Below the pieces are notes generated by a model. It ran no database searches, was not told the origin of the DNA, and saw only the letters and a list, made by a program, of their open reading frames with translations. From Streptomyces roseochromogenus subsp. oscitans DS 12.976 (GTDB lineage Bacteria > Actinomycetota > Actinomycetes > Streptomycetales > Streptomycetaceae), in contig NZ_CM002285.1 in NCBI RefSeq assembly GCF_000497445.1, forward strand, positions 2,839,111 through 2,856,465: 17,355 nt of DNA, written 5' to 3'. This document shows, one piece after another, positions 3 to 9,836 of the stretch (position 1 is its first letter; every line of letters begins with the position of its first letter). A program made the position numbers and the translations under genes.

Positions 3-818
3 CGCGCCGCCGGGCGGGACCCGCGCGCCGTGGTGGTGACGGTGCCGGACAACCCGACCGGCACCGTCGCCTCCGCCGCGACCGTGCGGGGCCTGGCCGA
101 GGCAGCCCGCGACCTCGACCTCGTCCTGGTCTCCGACGAGATCTACGGCGACCTCGTCCACGATCCCGACCGTGCCGCGGTCTCCCCGGCGAGGTATGCC
201 CCCGAGCGCACGGTCGTCACCACCGGGCTCACCAAGAACCTGGCGCTGGGCGGCTGGCGCACCGGCGTGGCACGGCTGCCCGACAGCCCCGCCGGACACG
301 AGCTGCGCACGCGGCTGGTCTCCGTCGCCAGCCAGATCTGGTCCAGCCCGCCGGCCCCGGTGCAGACGGCCGCGGCCTACGCCTTCGCCGAGCCGGCGGA
401 GATCACCGGGCGGATCGCGGCGAGCCGGCGACTGCACGCGGCGGTGGTGCGTGCGGCAGCCGCGAGCTTCACAGCGGTCGGCGCGGACCTCGCGCCGGTG
501 ACCGCCACCTGCTACCTCTACCCGGACTTCGAGCCGCTGCGCGCCCGCCTCACCGAGGCACATGGCGTAAGCGGCGGCGAGGACATCGTCCGGTTCCTCG
601 TCGAGCGCCACGGCGTCGGCGTCCTCCCGGCGAGCGCGTTCGGCGAGCCGGGCAGCGCGCTGCGGATCCGTGCCGCCACCAGCCGCCTGTACGGCGACAC
701 CGACGAGCAGCGCACCGCCGCGCTGACCGCTCCCGACCCGCTCACCCTGCCCTGGATCCGCCAGTCCCTCACCCACCTCGGCGAGGCTCTGGCGGACCTG
801 ACCGATCCCCGGCCCTGA
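3..818 (+). CDS. PLP-dependent aminotransferase, class I/II (5' end outside window)
   Basis: Fold-type I aminotransferase that would move an amino group between an amino acid and a 2-oxo acid in the cytoplasm. The frame is open from base 3 and no start with a ribosome site is visible, so the N-terminal part lies upstream of the window. Visible family landmarks are the cofactor-contacting VTVPDNPTGT segment, then SDEIYGDL (the Asp that pairs with the pyridine nitrogen, and the Tyr), then TTGLTKNLALGGWRTG, which holds the Schiff-base lysine and the downstream arginine. Near the C-terminus GSALRIRAA corresponds to the substrate-carboxylate arginine region. It ends 20 bases before the FAH-like gene and is probably the first visible gene of the same operon. 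Substrate specificity cannot be read from the sequence. Confidence 0.88.
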   Translation, partial: RAAGRDPRAVVVTVPDNPTGTVASAATVRGLAEAARDLDLVLVSDEIYGDLVHDPDRAAVSPARYAPERTVVTTGLTKNLALGGWRTGVARLPDSPAGHELRTRLVSVASQIWSSPPAPVQTAAAYAFAEPAEITGRIAASRRLHAAVVRAAAASFTAVGADLAPVTATCYLYPDFEPLRARLTEAHGVSGGEDIVRFLVERHGVGVLPASAFGEPGSALRIRAATSRLYGDTDEQRTAALTAPDPLTLPWIRQSLTHLGEALADLTDPRP

Positions 819-3153: not shown

Positions 3154-4373
3154 CCGCATCCCCGCTGCACCTCGCCGTCGCCCTGGACGGCGCCGGCTGG
3201 CACCCGGCGGCCTGGCGGGCCGAGGACGCCCGGCCCGGCGCGCTGTTCACCGCCCAGTACTGGGCAGACCTGGTCACGGAAGCCGAGCACGGCATGCTCG
3301 ACTTCGTCACCTTCGAGGATGCGCTCGGCATACAGTCCGCCGCCTTCCACCGGCCCGACGACCGCACCGACCAGGTGCGCGGCAGTCTGGACGCGGTCCT
3401 GCTCGCGGCTCGCATGGCACCGCTCACCACGCACATCGGCCTGGTCCCGACCGCGAACGTCACCCATACGGAGCCGTTCCACGTAGCCACCGGCATCGCC
3501 ACCCTCGACCATGCGAGCAAAGGCCGGGCCGGCTGGCGCCCGCAGATCGCCGCGCGCGCCGCCGACGCCACCCACTTCGGCCGCCGTACGACGCCGCAGC
3601 TCACCGACGACGACGTGCGCGACCCGGAGCGCATCGGCCGGCGGCTGCGCCCGCTGTTCGACGAGGCCACCGACGTGGTGGAGGTCGCCCGGCGGCTGTG
3701 GGACAGCTGGGAGGACGACGCGGAGATCCGGGACGCGGCCACCGGCCGCTTCATCGACCGCGGCAAGGTCCACCACATCGACTTCGCGGGCGCCCACTTC
3801 GGTGTCCGGGGCCCTTCGATCATCCCACGCCCGCCGCAGGGACAACCGCTTGTGACGAGCCTGGCGCACGCCATGGTCCCGTACGAGTTCGCGACGCGCT
3901 CGTGCGACGTCGTGTACGTCACGCCGCACGACCGGGCGGGGGCCGCGGCGATCGTTGCCCAGGTGGACGAAGCCGCCGGCCGCTCCGGCCGCGACATGCG
4001 GGCCTGGCCACTGCTCCGGTTCGCGGAACTCCTCGTCTTCCTGGACGCCGAGCCGCGCGCCGCCACGCACCGCAAGACCCACCTCGATTCCCTCGACGGC
4101 GCCGAACTCACCTCCGATGCCGAGGTGTTCACCGGCACTCCCGGCGAACTCGCCGACCTGCTGCTGGACTGGCGCGAGGCGGGGCTCGACGGCTTCCGGA
4201 TTCGCCCCGGCACGCTGCCGCACGACCTCGTTCAGATCACTCGCGGGCTGGTACCCGAGCTGCAGCGGCGCGGAGCGTTCCGCACCGCGTACGACGCGAC
4301 GACGCTGCGCGGCCACCTGTGCCTGGCGCGCCCCAACAGCCGCTATTCGCAGGAGAGGCAGACCAGAAAGTGA
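3150..4373 (+). CDS. Luciferase-like flavin-dependent monooxygenase (second copy, divergent)
   Basis: A 407-residue member of the same luciferase-like superfamily as the gene before it, but clearly a different subfamily. It opens with LHLAVALDGAGWHPAAWR, keeps a version of the flavin-site block (GIATLDHASKGRAGWRPQ) and a degenerate PRPPQGQPLVTS block, and is about 55 residues shorter. GTG at 3150 is the start: it overlaps the preceding TGA (GTGA, 3150-3153) and has GAGGAGG a few bases upstream. Two adjacent, coupled enzymes of this kind suggest consecutive oxidations or a heteromeric oxygenase, which is inference. The weakened nucleotide-binding block raises the possibility of a non-catalytic partner, as with LuxB beside LuxA, but this cannot be settled from sequence alone. 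Confidence 0.85.
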   Translation: MTASPLHLAVALDGAGWHPAAWRAEDARPGALFTAQYWADLVTEAEHGMLDFVTFEDALGIQSAAFHRPDDRTDQVRGSLDAVLLAARMAPLTTHIGLVPTANVTHTEPFHVATGIATLDHASKGRAGWRPQIAARAADATHFGRRTTPQLTDDDVRDPERIGRRLRPLFDEATDVVEVARRLWDSWEDDAEIRDAATGRFIDRGKVHHIDFAGAHFGVRGPSIIPRPPQGQPLVTSLAHAMVPYEFATRSCDVVYVTPHDRAGAAAIVAQVDEAAGRSGRDMRAWPLLRFAELLVFLDAEPRAATHRKTHLDSLDGAELTSDAEVFTGTPGELADLLLDWREAGLDGFRIRPGTLPHDLVQITRGLVPELQRRGAFRTAYDATTLRGHLCLARPNSRYSQERQTRK

Positions 4374-5521
4374 CGGTTCTCACGCAGGCCCGCCCGGCAG
4401 CGAGACAACTCACCTTCATCGCTGCCACCCGCCTGCTGCCGTCCTTCTGTATCCTCGCGTCGCATCTGTCCTTCGAGCAGGTCTTCAAGGACCGGACGGT
4501 GCAGGAGACGTACTACCGCATCTTCAACCCGGCGGGCTTCAACGCGGTGTCGTTCTTCATCGTCCTCAGCGGCTTCATCCTGACGTGGATATCCGCAGAG
4601 CGCCCGCCGGACCGCGGCTTCCGGGCCCGCCGACTGCTGCGCATCCTGCCGGTGCACTTCCTGACCTGGGCCGTGATCGTGTGCGCCTTCGCCGCCACCT
4701 TCTCGGCCACCGGCCTGTTCGCCACGCTCACCCTCCTGCAAGGCTGGTTCCCGGACCACGGCATCTACTGGGCGGCCAACGCCCCGGCGTGGACCCTGTC
4801 GACCGAACTCGTCCTGTACGCGGTGTTCCCGACCGCGTACAGGTTCCTGGTCCGCCGCGGTGACCAGTTCCTGTTCGGCCTGCTGACCGGTCTGATCGCG
4901 GTCGTGGTGCTGTTGCCGCTGGCTCTGCAACTCCTTCCGGACGGCACGACGTTCGCCAACGCAGCGTTCACGGAGCGCGGCCACCTCGTCCGTGTCTCCG
5001 AGTGGAAATACTGGCTCGTCTACGTCTTTCCGCTCACTCGCGTCCTGGAGGCGCTGTGCGGCATGGTGGTCTGCCTGCTGGTGTCGCGCGGCAGGTGGAC
5101 GCGCAAAGTCCGGGTGCCCACCGCACTGCTCGTGTCGGCGGTGGTGGTCGAGGAGCTGTGGGCGCCGGTCCTGTTCGACCTGACGGCGTTGACGATCGTC
5201 CCGATCGCCCTGCTCATCGGCGCCTTGGCAGCCAAGGAGATCGGCCGTTGGAATGCCCCAGGTGCTACGGAGAACCGCGCCGTCGCCCGCGTCTCGGCCT
5301 ACGGCAAGTACACCTTCGGTATTTACATGTACCAGTGGGCCTTCATCATGGTCTGCCAGCGGTATGTGCACCCCTGGGGCAACTCGGTCGCCGGGGGCGT
5401 GCTCTTGGTGATCGCCTTCTACGCGCTGTGCGTCGCCGTCTCCATGGTCTCCTACCGCTTCGTCGAGACCCCGGTCAACCGTTTCATGAAGCCTGCCATC
5501 GCTGCGTACACGAAGCGGTGA
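4370..5521 (+). CDS. Acyltransferase family 3 (OafA/YrhL-type) membrane protein
   Basis: A 383-residue polytopic membrane protein with about ten hydrophobic segments. AT3 proteins move acyl groups across or at the membrane onto sugars, antibiotics or lipids. The family pattern is visible in order: SFFIVLSGFILTW, then FRARRLLRILPVHFLTW (the basic residues and histidine typical of the active site), then APAWTLSTELVLYAVFP, and near the C-terminus YGKYTFGIYMYQW and YRFVETPVNRF. GTG at 4370 overlaps the stop of the upstream monooxygenase (GTGA, 4370-4373) and is preceded by AGGAGAGG at 4351-4358. Coupling suggests that it acylates the product of the preceding oxidases or that product's glycoside, but it could also modify cell-envelope glycans. 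It is the last gene of the operon. Confidence 0.87.
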   Translation: MTVLTQARPAARQLTFIAATRLLPSFCILASHLSFEQVFKDRTVQETYYRIFNPAGFNAVSFFIVLSGFILTWISAERPPDRGFRARRLLRILPVHFLTWAVIVCAFAATFSATGLFATLTLLQGWFPDHGIYWAANAPAWTLSTELVLYAVFPTAYRFLVRRGDQFLFGLLTGLIAVVVLLPLALQLLPDGTTFANAAFTERGHLVRVSEWKYWLVYVFPLTRVLEALCGMVVCLLVSRGRWTRKVRVPTALLVSAVVVEELWAPVLFDLTALTIVPIALLIGALAAKEIGRWNAPGATENRAVARVSAYGKYTFGIYMYQWAFIMVCQRYVHPWGNSVAGGVLLVIAFYALCVAVSMVSYRFVETPVNRFMKPAIAAYTKR

Positions 5522-5602: not shown

Positions 5603-7397
5603 ATGGGTGGAGCGGCACGGGTGCGCGTGCCGGTGGGTGAGGATGCGGAGCGATGGGTCACACGGGTGGGGTGCCGCCGTGTGCTGTTCATCGTGCACAA
5701 CGTGACGTCCGCTACGCGGCTGCTGGACGTGCTTCCGCTGTTCGACGGCGACCTGCGCGTCCAGATGGCCGCCACCTGCACCGGCTCGTCCCCGTTCCTC
5801 GCCGGGGTGCCCGAGCTGCTGGCACGGGCGGGGCTGCCGGTCCTGCCCTGGGAACAGGCCAAGGAGACGCCGTTCGACCTGGTGGTGTCCGCCAGTTACG
5901 GCGGTGAACTCGCTTCCGTGCAAGGTAAGTTGGCGGTGCTGTCACACGGGGTCGGATACAATAAAAGGCTGGCTACACCGGACACCGGACACCGGACACC
6001 GGACACCGGACACCGGACACCCGTCGCCCTCGTCCCCGCCCGTCTTCGGGCTGTCGCCCGACTGGCTCCTGGAAGACGGGCGTCCCCTCGCCAGCGCCAC
6101 CGTCCTGTCCCACCCAGAACAGCTGGAGCGGCTGCGCTCGGCCTGTCCGGAGGCGGCGCCCACCGCGGTGCTCGCCGGGGACCCGTGCTATGACCGCATG
6201 CTTGCCGCGCTCCCCCAACGTGCCGCCTTCCGCCGTGCGTTGGGCGTGGGCCCGGGCCAGCGGCTGATCGTCGTCAGCTCGACCTGGGCGCCCCGTTCCC
6301 TCTTCGGCGGAGCCGCGGAGCCGGAGGCGGATGATCTGCTGCCCTGGCTGCTGTCCCGCCTCTCGGCCGAGCTGCCGGCCGACGAGTACCGGACCGTCGC
6401 GGTCCTGCATCCGAACATCTGGTACGGCCATGGGCCCGGGCAGGTCCGTGCCTGGCTGGACAACGCGCGGCGGGCCGGCCTCGACGCGATACCGCCGCTC
6501 GACGGGTGGCAACAGGCCCTGATCGCCGCCGACTGTGTCCTGGGGGATCATTCGAGCGTCACCTACTACGCGGCGTCCATAGGCATCCCCGTCGTCCTCG
6601 GGTCGTTCCCCCAGCAGGACCTCGACCCGCTGTCACCGGTCGCCGCCCTCGGCCGTACCGCTCCCCGACTCGTTCGCCGAGGCAGCCTGCGGGCACAGAT
6701 CGACCAGGTCATCGCGGCGCACGACCCCGGCCGGTACAAGGAGCTCGCGGAGCAGACCAGTTCGGCACCGGGCGAGTCGGCCGCTCTGCTGCGCCGCCTG
6801 TTCTACGGCCTCATGGAGCTGCCCGAGCCGGACCGGCACTCCGCGCTGCTCGACCCGCTGCCGCTGCCGCCGTACCTGCCCGCCCGCCGTACCGCCCCGG
6901 TCCGCGTCCTCGTCGGCGGTATCGGCTCGCATCCGCCGGAGGTCTCCGTCGTCCGGTACGCCGTCGCGGGCGCCGGGCCCGGACCGGCGGTGTGTGCCGA
7001 CTCCGCGCACACAGTCGTGGACGAGGAGACGCGGGAGACCGGGCGGCTGGGCATCGCCGACGTCGTCGTACGGTACGCGGCCGGGGACGATCCACGGCTC
7101 GGGCCGCCCGCCGCCTGGACGGCGGAGGCGCTGGACCGCTACCCGTACTGCGGGCTGGCCGCCTATGTCGACGGGCCGGACCGCTGTGTCGTACGCACCC
7201 GGGACGGTGACCTCGTGCGGCTGTCCGCCGCAGCGGCCCTCGACGGCCGGGCCGACCTGTGCGATCCCGCCGCCTACGCCTCCGCGCTGCACGCCTGGCT
7301 CGCGAGCGGCCGGAGCCTGGAGCGGGCCCTCCCCGGGATCACCGTACGCACCGGTGCCACCGCCCATCGGGTCGCCGTGGAGCCGCTCGCCCCGTGA
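5603..7397 (+). pseudogene. CDP-glycerol glycerophosphotransferase-like (GT-B) gene, out of frame at a 7-bp repeat array; candidate phase-variable gene
   Basis: Two overlapping frames together encode one protein. The N-terminal half (from ATG 5603 behind GGTGGGG; GTG 5576 and 5585 are alternatives) contains RVLFIVHNVTSATRLL and VLSHGVGYNK. The C-terminal half continues one frame over with PVFGLSPDWLLEDGRP, HPNIWYGHGPG and CVLGDHSSVTYYAA. The last resembles the D-H/Y-S-S donor-site motif of TagF-like CDP-glycerol glycerophosphotransferases, which build teichoic-acid-type polymers. As sequenced, the first frame runs through the ACACCGG array (5975-6021) and stops at 6193, giving a 196-residue truncated product. 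Removing one 7-bp unit gives 595 residues and adding two gives 602. Sequence on both sides of the array looks intact, which argues against ordinary decay. The exact enzymatic role is inferred from weak motif similarity. Confidence 0.75.
5975..6021 (+). repeat. Tandem heptanucleotide array (ACACCGG) x 6.7 inside a coding region
   Basis: Six full copies of ACACCGG followed by ACACC, with no mismatch over 47 bases. Since 7 is not a multiple of 3, each gain or loss of a unit shifts the frame. Three units (21 bases) encode the heptapeptide TPDTGHR, seen twice here. With six full copies the downstream half of the gene is out of frame; five, eight or eleven copies put it in frame. Long perfect units of this size are the classic substrate for slipped-strand mispairing. 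Confidence 0.97.
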
Positions 7398-7411
7398 GCC
7401 GGGTCCTCACG
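7393..7411. terminator. Short inverted repeat between convergent genes
   Basis: CGTGAG, a 7-base loop, then CTCACG. It lies exactly where the phase-variable gene (stop 7397) and the STAND gene (stop 7407) meet tail to tail and spans both stop codons. It could serve as a weak bidirectional terminator. The stem is only 6 bp and has no T-run, so confidence is low. Confidence 0.3.
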
Positions 7412-9836
7412 CCGCCAGCTCGGCCAGGCGCGCCCGTACGCGCGCCAGGCCGATGTGGTTCCCGTGCTCCTCGTAGGACACGGCCGCGGTACGCAGGTCC
7501 TCCGTCTCCTCGGCCGGGCGGTCCGACCGTCGGTGACAGCGGGCCCGCGCCTCGACGGCGTCGGCCAGTTGCAGTCCCGCGCCCGCCTCGGTCATCGCCT
7601 TGACGGCCTCGTCCAGGCACACGCGCGCCTGCTCCGCGTCCCCCGCGTCCAGGTGGGCGTCGCCCAGACTCATATAGACCCGGCCCGCGTTGTAGGCATC
7701 GCCACCGCCCGGCAGCCGGCGGAACCGCGCCAGGGCGTCGTTCAGCCGGGCGATGGCGGCGGCGAAGTCCCCCCGCTTGGTCTGGGCGCGGCCGATGTGG
7801 TGGGCCAGCAGGGCCGTGGCGCGCGGCACGTCCTCCGCTCCGTCCTCGCCCGGGCCGATACGGCGCAGAATCTCCTGCGCCTCCTCGAAGCACCGCTGGG
7901 CCGCCCCGAACTCCCACTGCCTGAGGCGGAGCAGCCCCAGCGCCTCGACGGCGGTCGCCTCGCCGCGGTGATGGCCGCAGGCCCGGTCCGCGGCCCGCGC
8001 CTGTGTGAGGGCATCCGCGGCCTCCGTCACCTGCCCGGCTCCCATGTGGGCGAAGGCCAGTTGCGTCCACATGCGGCCCACGGCGCGCGGGTCGCCGAAC
8101 TCCTCCGCGCCGCGCCGGGCGGCCTCGACGCCGAGCAGGTGTGTGTCGATCCACTGGGCGTGGAAGCCGAGCAGCAGATGCAGGCCCCACATCGCCTCGC
8201 ACAGTTGCCAGACGAGGTCGTCGAAGCCGTGGTGTGCGGCGGCCCGGATGACGGCCGCGAGGTTCTCCCGCTCGGCGCGCAGGTCGGCCAGGGCTCGCTT
8301 GCCGTCCTCGGGGTCGCGGTGTTCCGGGACGGTGAGCGCCTGGTAGGCGGGGCCGAGCCGCCAGCGGAGCGGCATGACCCGGAAGTCGAGTCCCGCCGCG
8401 AAGCGCAGATGCGCGACCGCCACGCGGCGGACGGCGGCCGCCATCCGGCCGTGCCCGTCCTCGGCCTCCGCGAGCCCGTGGGCGTGCGCCCGGGTCAGGT
8501 CGTGGAACCGGTAGCGCTCCTCGCCGACCTCCTCCAGCAGATGCACCCGGGCCAGCCTCTCCAGCAGCGCCCGCGCCTCGTCCTCGCTCACCCCGGCGGC
8601 CTGTGCCGCGCACAGCACGGTGACGGTCGGCCAGGGCCACACCGCGATCGCCCGGTAGAACGCAGCGCAGTCGGGGGCGAGTTGGCCGTAGGAGACGTCC
8701 TGGACGGCGCGCACGGGATCGGCCGAGGCGTCGGGGGCCGGTTCTCCCATGAGGGCACCTCCCAGGTCATGGCCGTGGCTACGGTCGGACAGCTGCCGCG
8801 CGACCCGTTCCCACGTCAGGTGTTCCCGGACGGCGAGGCCGGCGCCCGTGGTGCACAGGGCGAGGGGAATCCCACCTGTGCCCTGCGCCACCGCCTGGAC
8901 GACGGCGTCCGGAGCCGCCGGGCGGCCGCTGCCGGCGACCCGCCTGATCAGCGTGACGGCGTCCTCGGTGGACAGCGGCCCCAGAGCATGCGGCCGGGCC
9001 CCGTGCCGGGACACGAGAAGTCCCTGCCGATACCGGCTCGTCACCAGCACCAGACACTCCGGGGACGCCGGGAGCAGCGGAATGACCTGGGCGTCGCCGC
9101 GGGCGTTGTCCAGTACGACGATCATGCGGCGCCCGGCCGTGCAGTCGAGGTACAGATCCCGCTGCCGTGCCTCGTCGCCCGGCACCATGGCGGCCGGCAC
9201 CCCGAGCCGCTCCAGGAACCGCGCGAGCACGTCGGAGGGCCGGAGCGCCGTACCGTCCGACGCGCCTGCCAGGTCGGCGAACAGGACTCCGTCGGGAAAC
9301 CGGTCCATCAGCTCGAACGCGCACCGGACCACGGCGGCTGTCTTGCCGATGCCACCCGGCCCGGTGAGTACGGCGATCGCCGGCGCACCCGGTGTACGCC
9401 CCTCCTCGTCCAGCAGTCCCCTGAGCCACGCGAGCACCTCCGCACGGTCGGTGAACACGGGCGTCGCCGGCGGCAGCATCTGCGGGCGGGAGGCGGCGTG
9501 TGCGACGGCGGGTACGGTGCGGGGCGACAGCCATGAGGCCTCACGGACCCACTCGGTCACCTCGCGGGCGAACTCCGGTGAGCTGCGGGCCAGTTCCAGC
9601 AGCTGCCGGGCCGCCGCGGTCTGCGCGTCCTCGGTGACGGGGAGGGTGGGGTGGCGTGAACCGCCCTCTCCAGGGCCGGAGTTCGCCTCGGCGTCGGCCC
9701 CGGCACGGCGGCCCCGGCTCAGCAGGTCATAGAGCCGCTCGGAGGTCCGTCGACCCGCCTCGCCGCCCGCTCCGGAGAGGGCGCCCGAGACGACCGTACC
9801 GACAGCCGAGAGCGCCATGCCCATCAACGGTTCCAC
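7407..9836 (-). CDS. STAND NTPase: NB-ARC domain with C-terminal TPR-like repeats
   Basis: An 809-residue signal-transduction ATPase. Residues 1-45 form a short helical, Gly/Ala-rich N-terminal module of unknown role. The nucleotide-binding domain begins near residue 125, with Walker A GPGGIGKT (159-166), Walker B MIVVLDNA (238-245), VTSR sensor (265-268), GGIPLAL (321-327) and a winged-helix segment ending in FHDL (444-447), the bacterial counterpart of the MHD motif. From about residue 560 to the end are helical TPR-like repeats. AfsR/SARP regulators share the NB-ARC and TPR parts, but here there is no N-terminal winged-helix activator domain, so direct DNA binding is not supported. GTG at 9836 is chosen because GGGGGAG lies 6 bases upstream. 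Such proteins work as ligand-sensing switches, some in phage defence; the function here is unknown. Confidence 0.87.
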   Translation of the reverse strand: MEPLMGMALSAVGTVVSGALSGAGGEAGRRTSERLYDLLSRGRRAGADAEANSGPGEGGSRHPTLPVTEDAQTAAARQLLELARSSPEFAREVTEWVREASWLSPRTVPAVAHAASRPQMLPPATPVFTDRAEVLAWLRGLLDEEGRTPGAPAIAVLTGPGGIGKTAAVVRCAFELMDRFPDGVLFADLAGASDGTALRPSDVLARFLERLGVPAAMVPGDEARQRDLYLDCTAGRRMIVVLDNARGDAQVIPLLPASPECLVLVTSRYRQGLLVSRHGARPHALGPLSTEDAVTLIRRVAGSGRPAAPDAVVQAVAQGTGGIPLALCTTGAGLAVREHLTWERVARQLSDRSHGHDLGGALMGEPAPDASADPVRAVQDVSYGQLAPDCAAFYRAIAVWPWPTVTVLCAAQAAGVSEDEARALLERLARVHLLEEVGEERYRFHDLTRAHAHGLAEAEDGHGRMAAAVRRVAVAHLRFAAGLDFRVMPLRWRLGPAYQALTVPEHRDPEDGKRALADLRAERENLAAVIRAAAHHGFDDLVWQLCEAMWGLHLLLGFHAQWIDTHLLGVEAARRGAEEFGDPRAVGRMWTQLAFAHMGAGQVTEAADALTQARAADRACGHHRGEATAVEALGLLRLRQWEFGAAQRCFEEAQEILRRIGPGEDGAEDVPRATALLAHHIGRAQTKRGDFAAAIARLNDALARFRRLPGGGDAYNAGRVYMSLGDAHLDAGDAEQARVCLDEAVKAMTEAGAGLQLADAVEARARCHRRSDRPAEETEDLRTAAVSYEEHGNHIGLARVRARLAELAA

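Follow-up and report, generated by a model that had tools for sequence, protein, structure and literature searches.

Heptanucleotide arrays as probable ON/OFF switches in a widespread family of TagF-like transferase genes of Streptomyces and other actinomycetes

Introduction

Does a tandem repeat array that leaves the two halves of one protein in different reading frames mark a gene that is switched ON and OFF, or one that is decaying? The question is raised by a locus in a 17,355-bp stretch of the genome of Streptomyces roseochromogenus subsp. oscitans DS 12.976 (referred to as the window in the rest of the text), in which an array of the heptanucleotide ACACCGG interrupts a gene coding for a TagF-like protein. 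Phase variation has been described as typical of small-genome pathogens (PMC11475388), and the Streptomyces case that our literature searches turned up is the G tract of the phage growth limitation system, Pgl. From comparison of the window with its relatives, we consider it very probable that the gene is a contingency (phase-variation) locus, one of an ancient and widespread family in which slipped-strand ON/OFF switching acts on an envelope-polymer-type transferase.

An array at the junction of two reading frames

The window lies on G000:C1, and its best named protein matches are from Streptomyces. The parts of the gene, compared where indicated with the intact relative P0002, are as follows.

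5603..5974, + strand: N-terminal half of the TagF-like protein (RVPVGEDAERW ... LSHGVGYNKRL), 89% identical to P0002 residues 2-143
5957..5970, + strand: DNA motif TACAATAAAAGGCT (consensus TAYAMTAARARRCT) just before the array; the genome's only TAYAMTAARARRYT match, at G000:C1:2845067-2845080
5975..6021, + strand: heptanucleotide array ACACCGG x 6.7, the proposed switch
6022..7397, + strand: C-terminal half, read in the second frame without interruption (PPVFGLSPDWLLEDG ... VAVEPLAP, stop); relatives match it, and the predicted fold of P0002 residues 24-405 resembles TagF

Tandem Repeats Finder (TRF) recovered the 6.7 copies with a 100% match. The longest perfect period-7 run is 47 nt, whereas none exceeds 20 nt in 300 copies of the window generated by a first-order Markov model, and three consecutive ACACCGG units (21 nt) occur at a single place in the 9.78-Mb genome (4 overlapping matches). 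Read from GTG 5576 or ATG 5603, the N-terminal half continues across the array to a stop at 6191-6193; the C-terminal half is read in a different frame, which ends at 7397. Both halves are contained in one open reading frame (ORF) with an identical junction peptide, GYNKRL[S/A]TPDTGHRTPDTGHPSP..PVFGLSPDWLL, in the intact relatives P0001 and P0002. An earlier reading of the window, made from the sequence alone (the sequence-only reading), had placed the repeats at the junction of two frames of one protein, and TRF, the ORFs and the intact relatives bear this out. Its further claim that loss of one unit restores the frame agrees with L006, the closest relative in our set (C halves 95.2% identical in DNA over 1200 nt), which carries 5.7 units and is ON, compared to 6.7 units and OFF in the window. 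Judging from one assembled contig, the window clone is in the OFF state. The original observation is real and part of something larger, the array being a family-wide feature.

In the mechanism that we propose, gain or loss of units, most likely by slipped-strand mispairing in replication, would shift the frame between the two halves of a TagF-like enzyme of glycosyltransferase B (GT-B) type. Only one class of unit counts would yield the full-length enzyme, and a step of three units would only add seven residues to a disordered loop. That the mutational step is slippage, and that it can be reversed inside a clone, is our inference. The enzyme would build or decorate an envelope polymer, and switching would act as bet-hedging against phages, umbrella-type toxins or other surface-directed attack.

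Arrays across the family

Of 295 genomes of the genus, 130 contain a match to the C half at E <= 0.001, and 967 proteins of the protein set matched it (the best 120 of the 967 are listed). We scored 219 family loci with one script and kept 202 after removal of 17 duplicates, among them L211, though it is a different strain with a different array. By best-matching type, the 202 loci comprise 141 of the window type (A1), 10 of a second internal type (A2), 49 of a 5′-end type (B1) and 2 of a second 5′-end type (B2). An array was scored from at least 3.5 perfect copies, and unit counts were taken from assemblies. Four draft assemblies (L079, L089, L095 and L194) contain runs of N in the array region, so draft unit counts need care.

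An array was present in 117 of the 141 A1 loci, the longest array having units of 7 bp (103 loci), 10 bp (9) or 8 bp (5), in 8 of the 10 A2 loci (all 7 bp) and in both B2 loci. Among B1 loci, all 25 at 47% identity or more had one (24 of 7 bp, 1 of 8 bp), compared to none of the 24 at 36-41% identity. As in simple sequence repeat contingency loci, the unit length is mostly not a multiple of 3, and the array lies inside or at the 5′ end of the gene. The sole multiple-of-3 unit among internal-type loci is that of a second array in L112 (9 bp x4.1) beside its 7-bp array; in both L112 and L260, this 9-bp array (GTCCGGCGA x4.1) immediately follows the 7-bp array ACTGCCG x5.3. The unit sequence itself varies by species (ACACCGG, GAGCCGG, ACGCCGG, CACCGGC, GCACCGA, ACAACACCGG and others).

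Two background samples put these arrays in context. In a 400-kb sample of the window's own genome, period-7 arrays of at least 3 copies occurred only in two other family genes, whose regions had been deliberately included. The 670 kb of flanks yielded 17 listed arrays, of which 3 are period-7 family arrays; the other 14 have units of 6 bp (6), 5 bp (3), 9 bp (2), 8 bp (2) and 12 bp (1), and no period-7 array of at least 3.5 copies was found outside the family in these flanks.

The family extends beyond the genus. Class-wide, 27 of 296 genomes, in 10 of 114 genera including the window's own, matched the family alignment at E <= 1e-10. Eleven of 13 loci outside the genus have 7- or 8-bp arrays (one at a contig end) and 2 have none; TACAATAA or TATAATAA precedes the array in 10 of the 11, the eleventh being cut by the contig end. 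Further loci outside the genus include both arrayed and array-less ones.

ON and OFF states

The 117 arrayed A1 loci divide into 57 in frame, 49 out of frame (30 in one wrong frame and 19 in the other), 7 that lack an identified N half and 4 with N runs, which leaves 106 scorable loci. The 24 A1 loci without a scored array include 20 in frame and 4 without an identified N half, so that all 20 scorable ones are in frame. The in-frame share of the arrayed loci exceeds one third (p 1.8e-5) and OFF is confined to arrayed loci (p 2.3e-5), neither test being corrected for common descent. Every one of the 49 OFF copies has an open C half, and the 8 arrayed A2 loci comprise 4 ON and 4 OFF. The variation in repeat length that the sequence-only reading proposed to look for among homologues was found, with both ON and OFF counts, and the scorable array-less relatives are not out of frame, as they might be for a plain pseudogene.

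We mapped these states on a FastTree phylogeny of 138 C halves, 105 tips of which were scored for ON/OFF. The state requires 38 changes compared to a mean of 35.1 for shuffled labels, with 450 of 500 shuffles at or below the observed value. ON/OFF state is without phylogenetic signal and scattered like shuffled labels. The main unit length, which takes no values but 7, 8 and 10 bp, follows the tree: it changes 10 times, compared to at least 12 times with shuffled labels. By a hand calculation, if lengths were free, a series of ten changes would miss every multiple of 3 with a probability of about (2/3)^10 = 0.017.

Unit number and frame also differ between close strains. In S. anthocyanicus NBC_01668 and NBC_01372, the gene lies on large linear plasmids whose flanking alignments are 99.5% and 98.7% identical; NBC_01668 has 17.6 units (offset 2) and NBC_01372 has 9.6 (offset 0), a difference of 8 units or 56 bp. 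The gene table gives a full coding sequence for NBC_01372 and the C-terminal part only for NBC_01668 (the table omits pseudogenes). At 95-96% identity, L212, L213 and L214 are in three different frames, and L052 and L054 (96.1%) have 3.9 and 4.9 units and are ON and OFF. Two groups of loci do not follow this pattern: L027, L067 and L070 have one common OFF count, and L008 and L036 (97.1%) are both ON with an equal count, which shows that the state can also be inherited. Overall, the in-frame relative, the scattered states and the strain pair with different frames give good support to the view of the array as an ON/OFF switch.

The genome of the window contains two further paralogues without internal stops, at C1:8443805-8445445(-) and C1:1342484-1344031(+) (43% and 38% identity to P0002), whose 7-bp arrays, GAACCGC x9.4 and GCGAGCA x10.4, are at the 5′ end. 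In 16 of 27 arrayed 5′-end members, the domain frame is closed after the array start, so translation must begin behind the array; the switch in 5′-end members may be transcriptional or act via the leader. The longest array of the catalogue, GAGCCGC x 53, lies ahead of a 5′-end type member (L221, genome G124).

A DNA motif before the arrays

The sequence TAYAMTAAR, also written TACAATAAAAGG, directly precedes the internal arrays. Its Asn/Thr codon ends in T in 116 of 118 internal-type loci with an array, compared to 2 of 22 without one (p 6e-20, ancestry ignored), and the two array-less loci with T (L177 and L186) have short sub-threshold arrays. GC content at third codon positions (GC3) in the 20 codons before the array is 0.64, compared to 0.87-0.89 further upstream (n=110), and falls less, from 0.91-0.93 to 0.757, in 20 array-less loci; within the motif codon it is 0.02 in arrayed and 0.90 in array-less loci. 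Of 25 loci of the 5′-end types, 17 have [CT]GATA in the 25 nt ahead of the array, and it occurs at most once in any other 25-nt bin (these loci are mutually related). The motif may be a promoter, a slippage-favouring or a repeat-seeding element.

A second DNA-level signal lies about 50 bp upstream of the motif: codon 17 before the motif Tyr codon of A1 loci ends in A or T in 98% of array-bearing and 75% of array-less loci. In L025 (genome G009), the C half, an array of 13 units and what is left of the motif, CTAAGAGACTGGC, are present, but the upstream sequence is not readable as an N half, as if recombined at the array.

The encoded protein and its partner

Two further features belong to the locus.

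6885..7394, + strand: separate C-terminal alpha/beta domain of about 170 residues, with no assigned function
7407..9836, - strand: convergent NB-ARC/TPR (STAND-type) gene, the conserved partner; start codon uncertain

Residues 24-405 of P0002 are predicted to form a GT-B fold, for which the best PDB match is the wall teichoic acid polymerase TagF (3l7i-3l7m), with UDP-N-acetylglucosamine (UDP-GlcNAc) 2-epimerases about tied. Identity between TagF and P0002 is 10-14%. PF04464 matched nothing above its cut-off of 22.1: the best score was 12.7 bits (E 0.06, L210 C half), and the window halves, P0002, P0071, P0101, P0118 and the L117 paralogue gave no match. The teichoic-acid-like character proposed by the sequence-only reading is supported at the level of the predicted fold and finds no Pfam match above the cut-off. 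Among 63 aligned relatives, H116 and H266 do not vary; according to PDB titles, H444 and H548 are the catalytic histidines of TagF, and the fit of H116 to H444 is one of position only, along the aligned ranges 24..404 and 351..721. The loop encoded by the array is predicted to be disordered. The family differs from TagF by its extra C-terminal domain, its NB-ARC/TPR neighbour and its repeat array.

The partner scored above the Pfam cut-offs for NB-ARC (26.7 bits, cut-off 23.5) and TPR_12 (51.8, cut-off 30.1), as befits an NB-ARC/TPR STAND protein. A relative of it lies convergently downstream in 65 of the 67 A1 loci with enough flank, the exceptions being L044 (same strand) and L086 (none found); the match in L091 covers 75 residues only. 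In 113 loci with a convergent match, the stop codons are at most 100 bp apart in 100 and overlap in 62. All three family copies in the genome of the window have an NB-ARC/TPR neighbour tail-to-tail. Its product probably senses or regulates the same process as the transferase.

Alternative explanations

An array growing neutrally in a dispensable loop, with the frameshift marking a dying gene or an assembly error, is very unlikely to account for these loci. A neutral microsatellite or pseudogene would fit the large number of out-of-frame copies (49 of 106) and the predicted disorder of the encoded loop, but the open C halves of every OFF copy, the excess of in-frame copies over one third and the intact frames of all scorable array-less copies argue against it, as do the restriction of period-7 arrays to the family in both background samples and the ten shifts in main unit length, which never leave 7, 8 and 10 bp, though one locus has the extra 9-bp array. 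Programmed ribosomal or transcriptional frameshifting at TAYAMTAAR or at the array, which would yield the full protein at any unit number, is highly improbable. It would explain why a DNA-level motif tied to the array sits exactly at the frame break; however, in-frame copies and both out-of-frame classes occur (57, 30 and 19), which no single recoding event fits, and near-identical strains differ in frame. Rather unlikely, too, is a role of the motif as the −10 box (TANNNT) of an internal promoter, in which case the array would lie in the leader of a second transcript and the unit number would also tune transcription of the C half. T1, A2 and T6 of TANNNT are kept in at least 116 of 118 loci, and the GC3 dip before the array and the [CT]GATA box of the 5′-end members point the same way. 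However, T1 and A2 are set by the Tyr codon, a milder dip is also seen in array-less copies, and inspection by eye, without a promoter scan, revealed neither a consistent −35 box at a spacing of 16-18 bp nor a start codon immediately behind the array.

The locus could also be an intracellular conflict (defence) module with the NB-ARC/TPR protein as sensor and the GT-B protein as effector or target, phase-varied because it is costly, as is phage growth limitation (Pgl); we give this an appreciable chance but think it unlikely. NB-ARC/TPR proteins are also common regulators in Streptomyces, which counts against it, and at E 0.01 PADLOC-DB 2.0.0 returned 0 families for the partner, P0002 and P0101. 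The tail-to-tail association of the two genes speaks for it, as do the glycosyltransferase domains reported in actinobacterial-type conflict systems (PMC7159879) and the phase variation of Pgl in Streptomyces (PMC4365076). A contingency locus for an envelope-polymer-type transferase remains our preferred explanation, and a more elaborate form of it is put forward tentatively, its chances being short of even: the loci would be an old actinomycete family of two-gene modules, each combining a repeat-switched TagF-like transferase with a tail-to-tail NB-ARC/TPR gene, in which a conserved DNA element keeps or seeds a frame-shifting array at a fixed position, and several modules in one genome could, as independent switches, combine into many surface states. 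The element would be TAYAMTAAR inside genes and the [CT]GATA box at 5′ ends, acting while the unit sequence turns over, and the result would be bet-hedging against phages and surface-binding toxins in a soil organism with a large genome.

Relation to known systems

The switch resembles that of neuO of Escherichia coli K1, a surface-glycan enzyme gene affecting phage survival, which undergoes phase variation through the heptanucleotide AAGACTC (PMC13001214). As described there, neuO also has 7-bp units within the coding sequence, a count modulo 3 that sets ON or OFF and mixed states among genomes. However, neuO codes for a prophage-borne O-acetyltransferase and has one unit at its 5′ end, whereas the genes described here are TagF-like GT-B genes from several actinomycete families, with an array after a conserved HG motif, a unit whose sequence and length vary by species and an NB-ARC/TPR gene as partner. 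Phase variation of a TagF-type gene has been reported for the CDP-glycerol glycerophosphotransferase of Campylobacter jejuni (06875), non-functional variants of which escape a capsule-dependent phage (PMC8949473). There, mutations affect nine sites of one capsule gene, and the abstract makes no mention of a conserved heptanucleotide array. Pgl of S. coelicolor shares repeat-tract phase variation in Streptomyces, but depends on a homopolymer G tract in the DNA methyltransferase gene pglX, and the proteins are unrelated (PMC4365076). A precedent for our 5′-end members is found in hmw1A and hmw2A of Haemophilus influenzae, which have 7-bp arrays in the promoter region and so, like our members, upstream of or at the 5′ end; these are adhesin genes under graded control of transcript level (PMC8262952).

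The family described here is distinct in that it occurs in several actinomycete families, that its unit sequence turns over while the main length stays off multiples of 3, that the array lies behind a conserved TagF-like segment, and that it has the partner and the motif. We found no report of these loci in open-licence PMC full texts (subscription journals were outside the scope), and novelty in print is not established. If our explanation is true, isogenic Streptomyces cultures may consist of cells that differ in state at these loci. Such mixtures could matter for phage host range, for strain instability and for the receptors used by umbrella toxins, whose target is a teichuronic-acid-like polymer linked to wall teichoic acid (PMC13274773). 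These soil bacteria seem to leave a trait to chance, as certain pathogens do, and it is a puzzle that a short DNA motif accompanies the arrays across actinomycete families while the repeat unit keeps changing.

Other observations

An acyltransferase-3 gene at 4316-5521 of the window lies directly upstream of the switch gene and is kept in 0 of 63 relatives. In a distant array-less subfamily (L153, L224, L226, L240 and others), NB-ARC/TPR genes are found nearby in part of the loci, several of them divergent. In L017, and near 3900-4012 in L105, the N half is truncated and what is missing reaches the array, as though a deletion had joined upstream coding DNA to the repeats. L105 (S. aureocirculatus) contains two family genes of different types in one 9-kb locus, each with its own 7-bp array (3920-4012 and 7682-7772) and with an NB-ARC/TPR gene between them.
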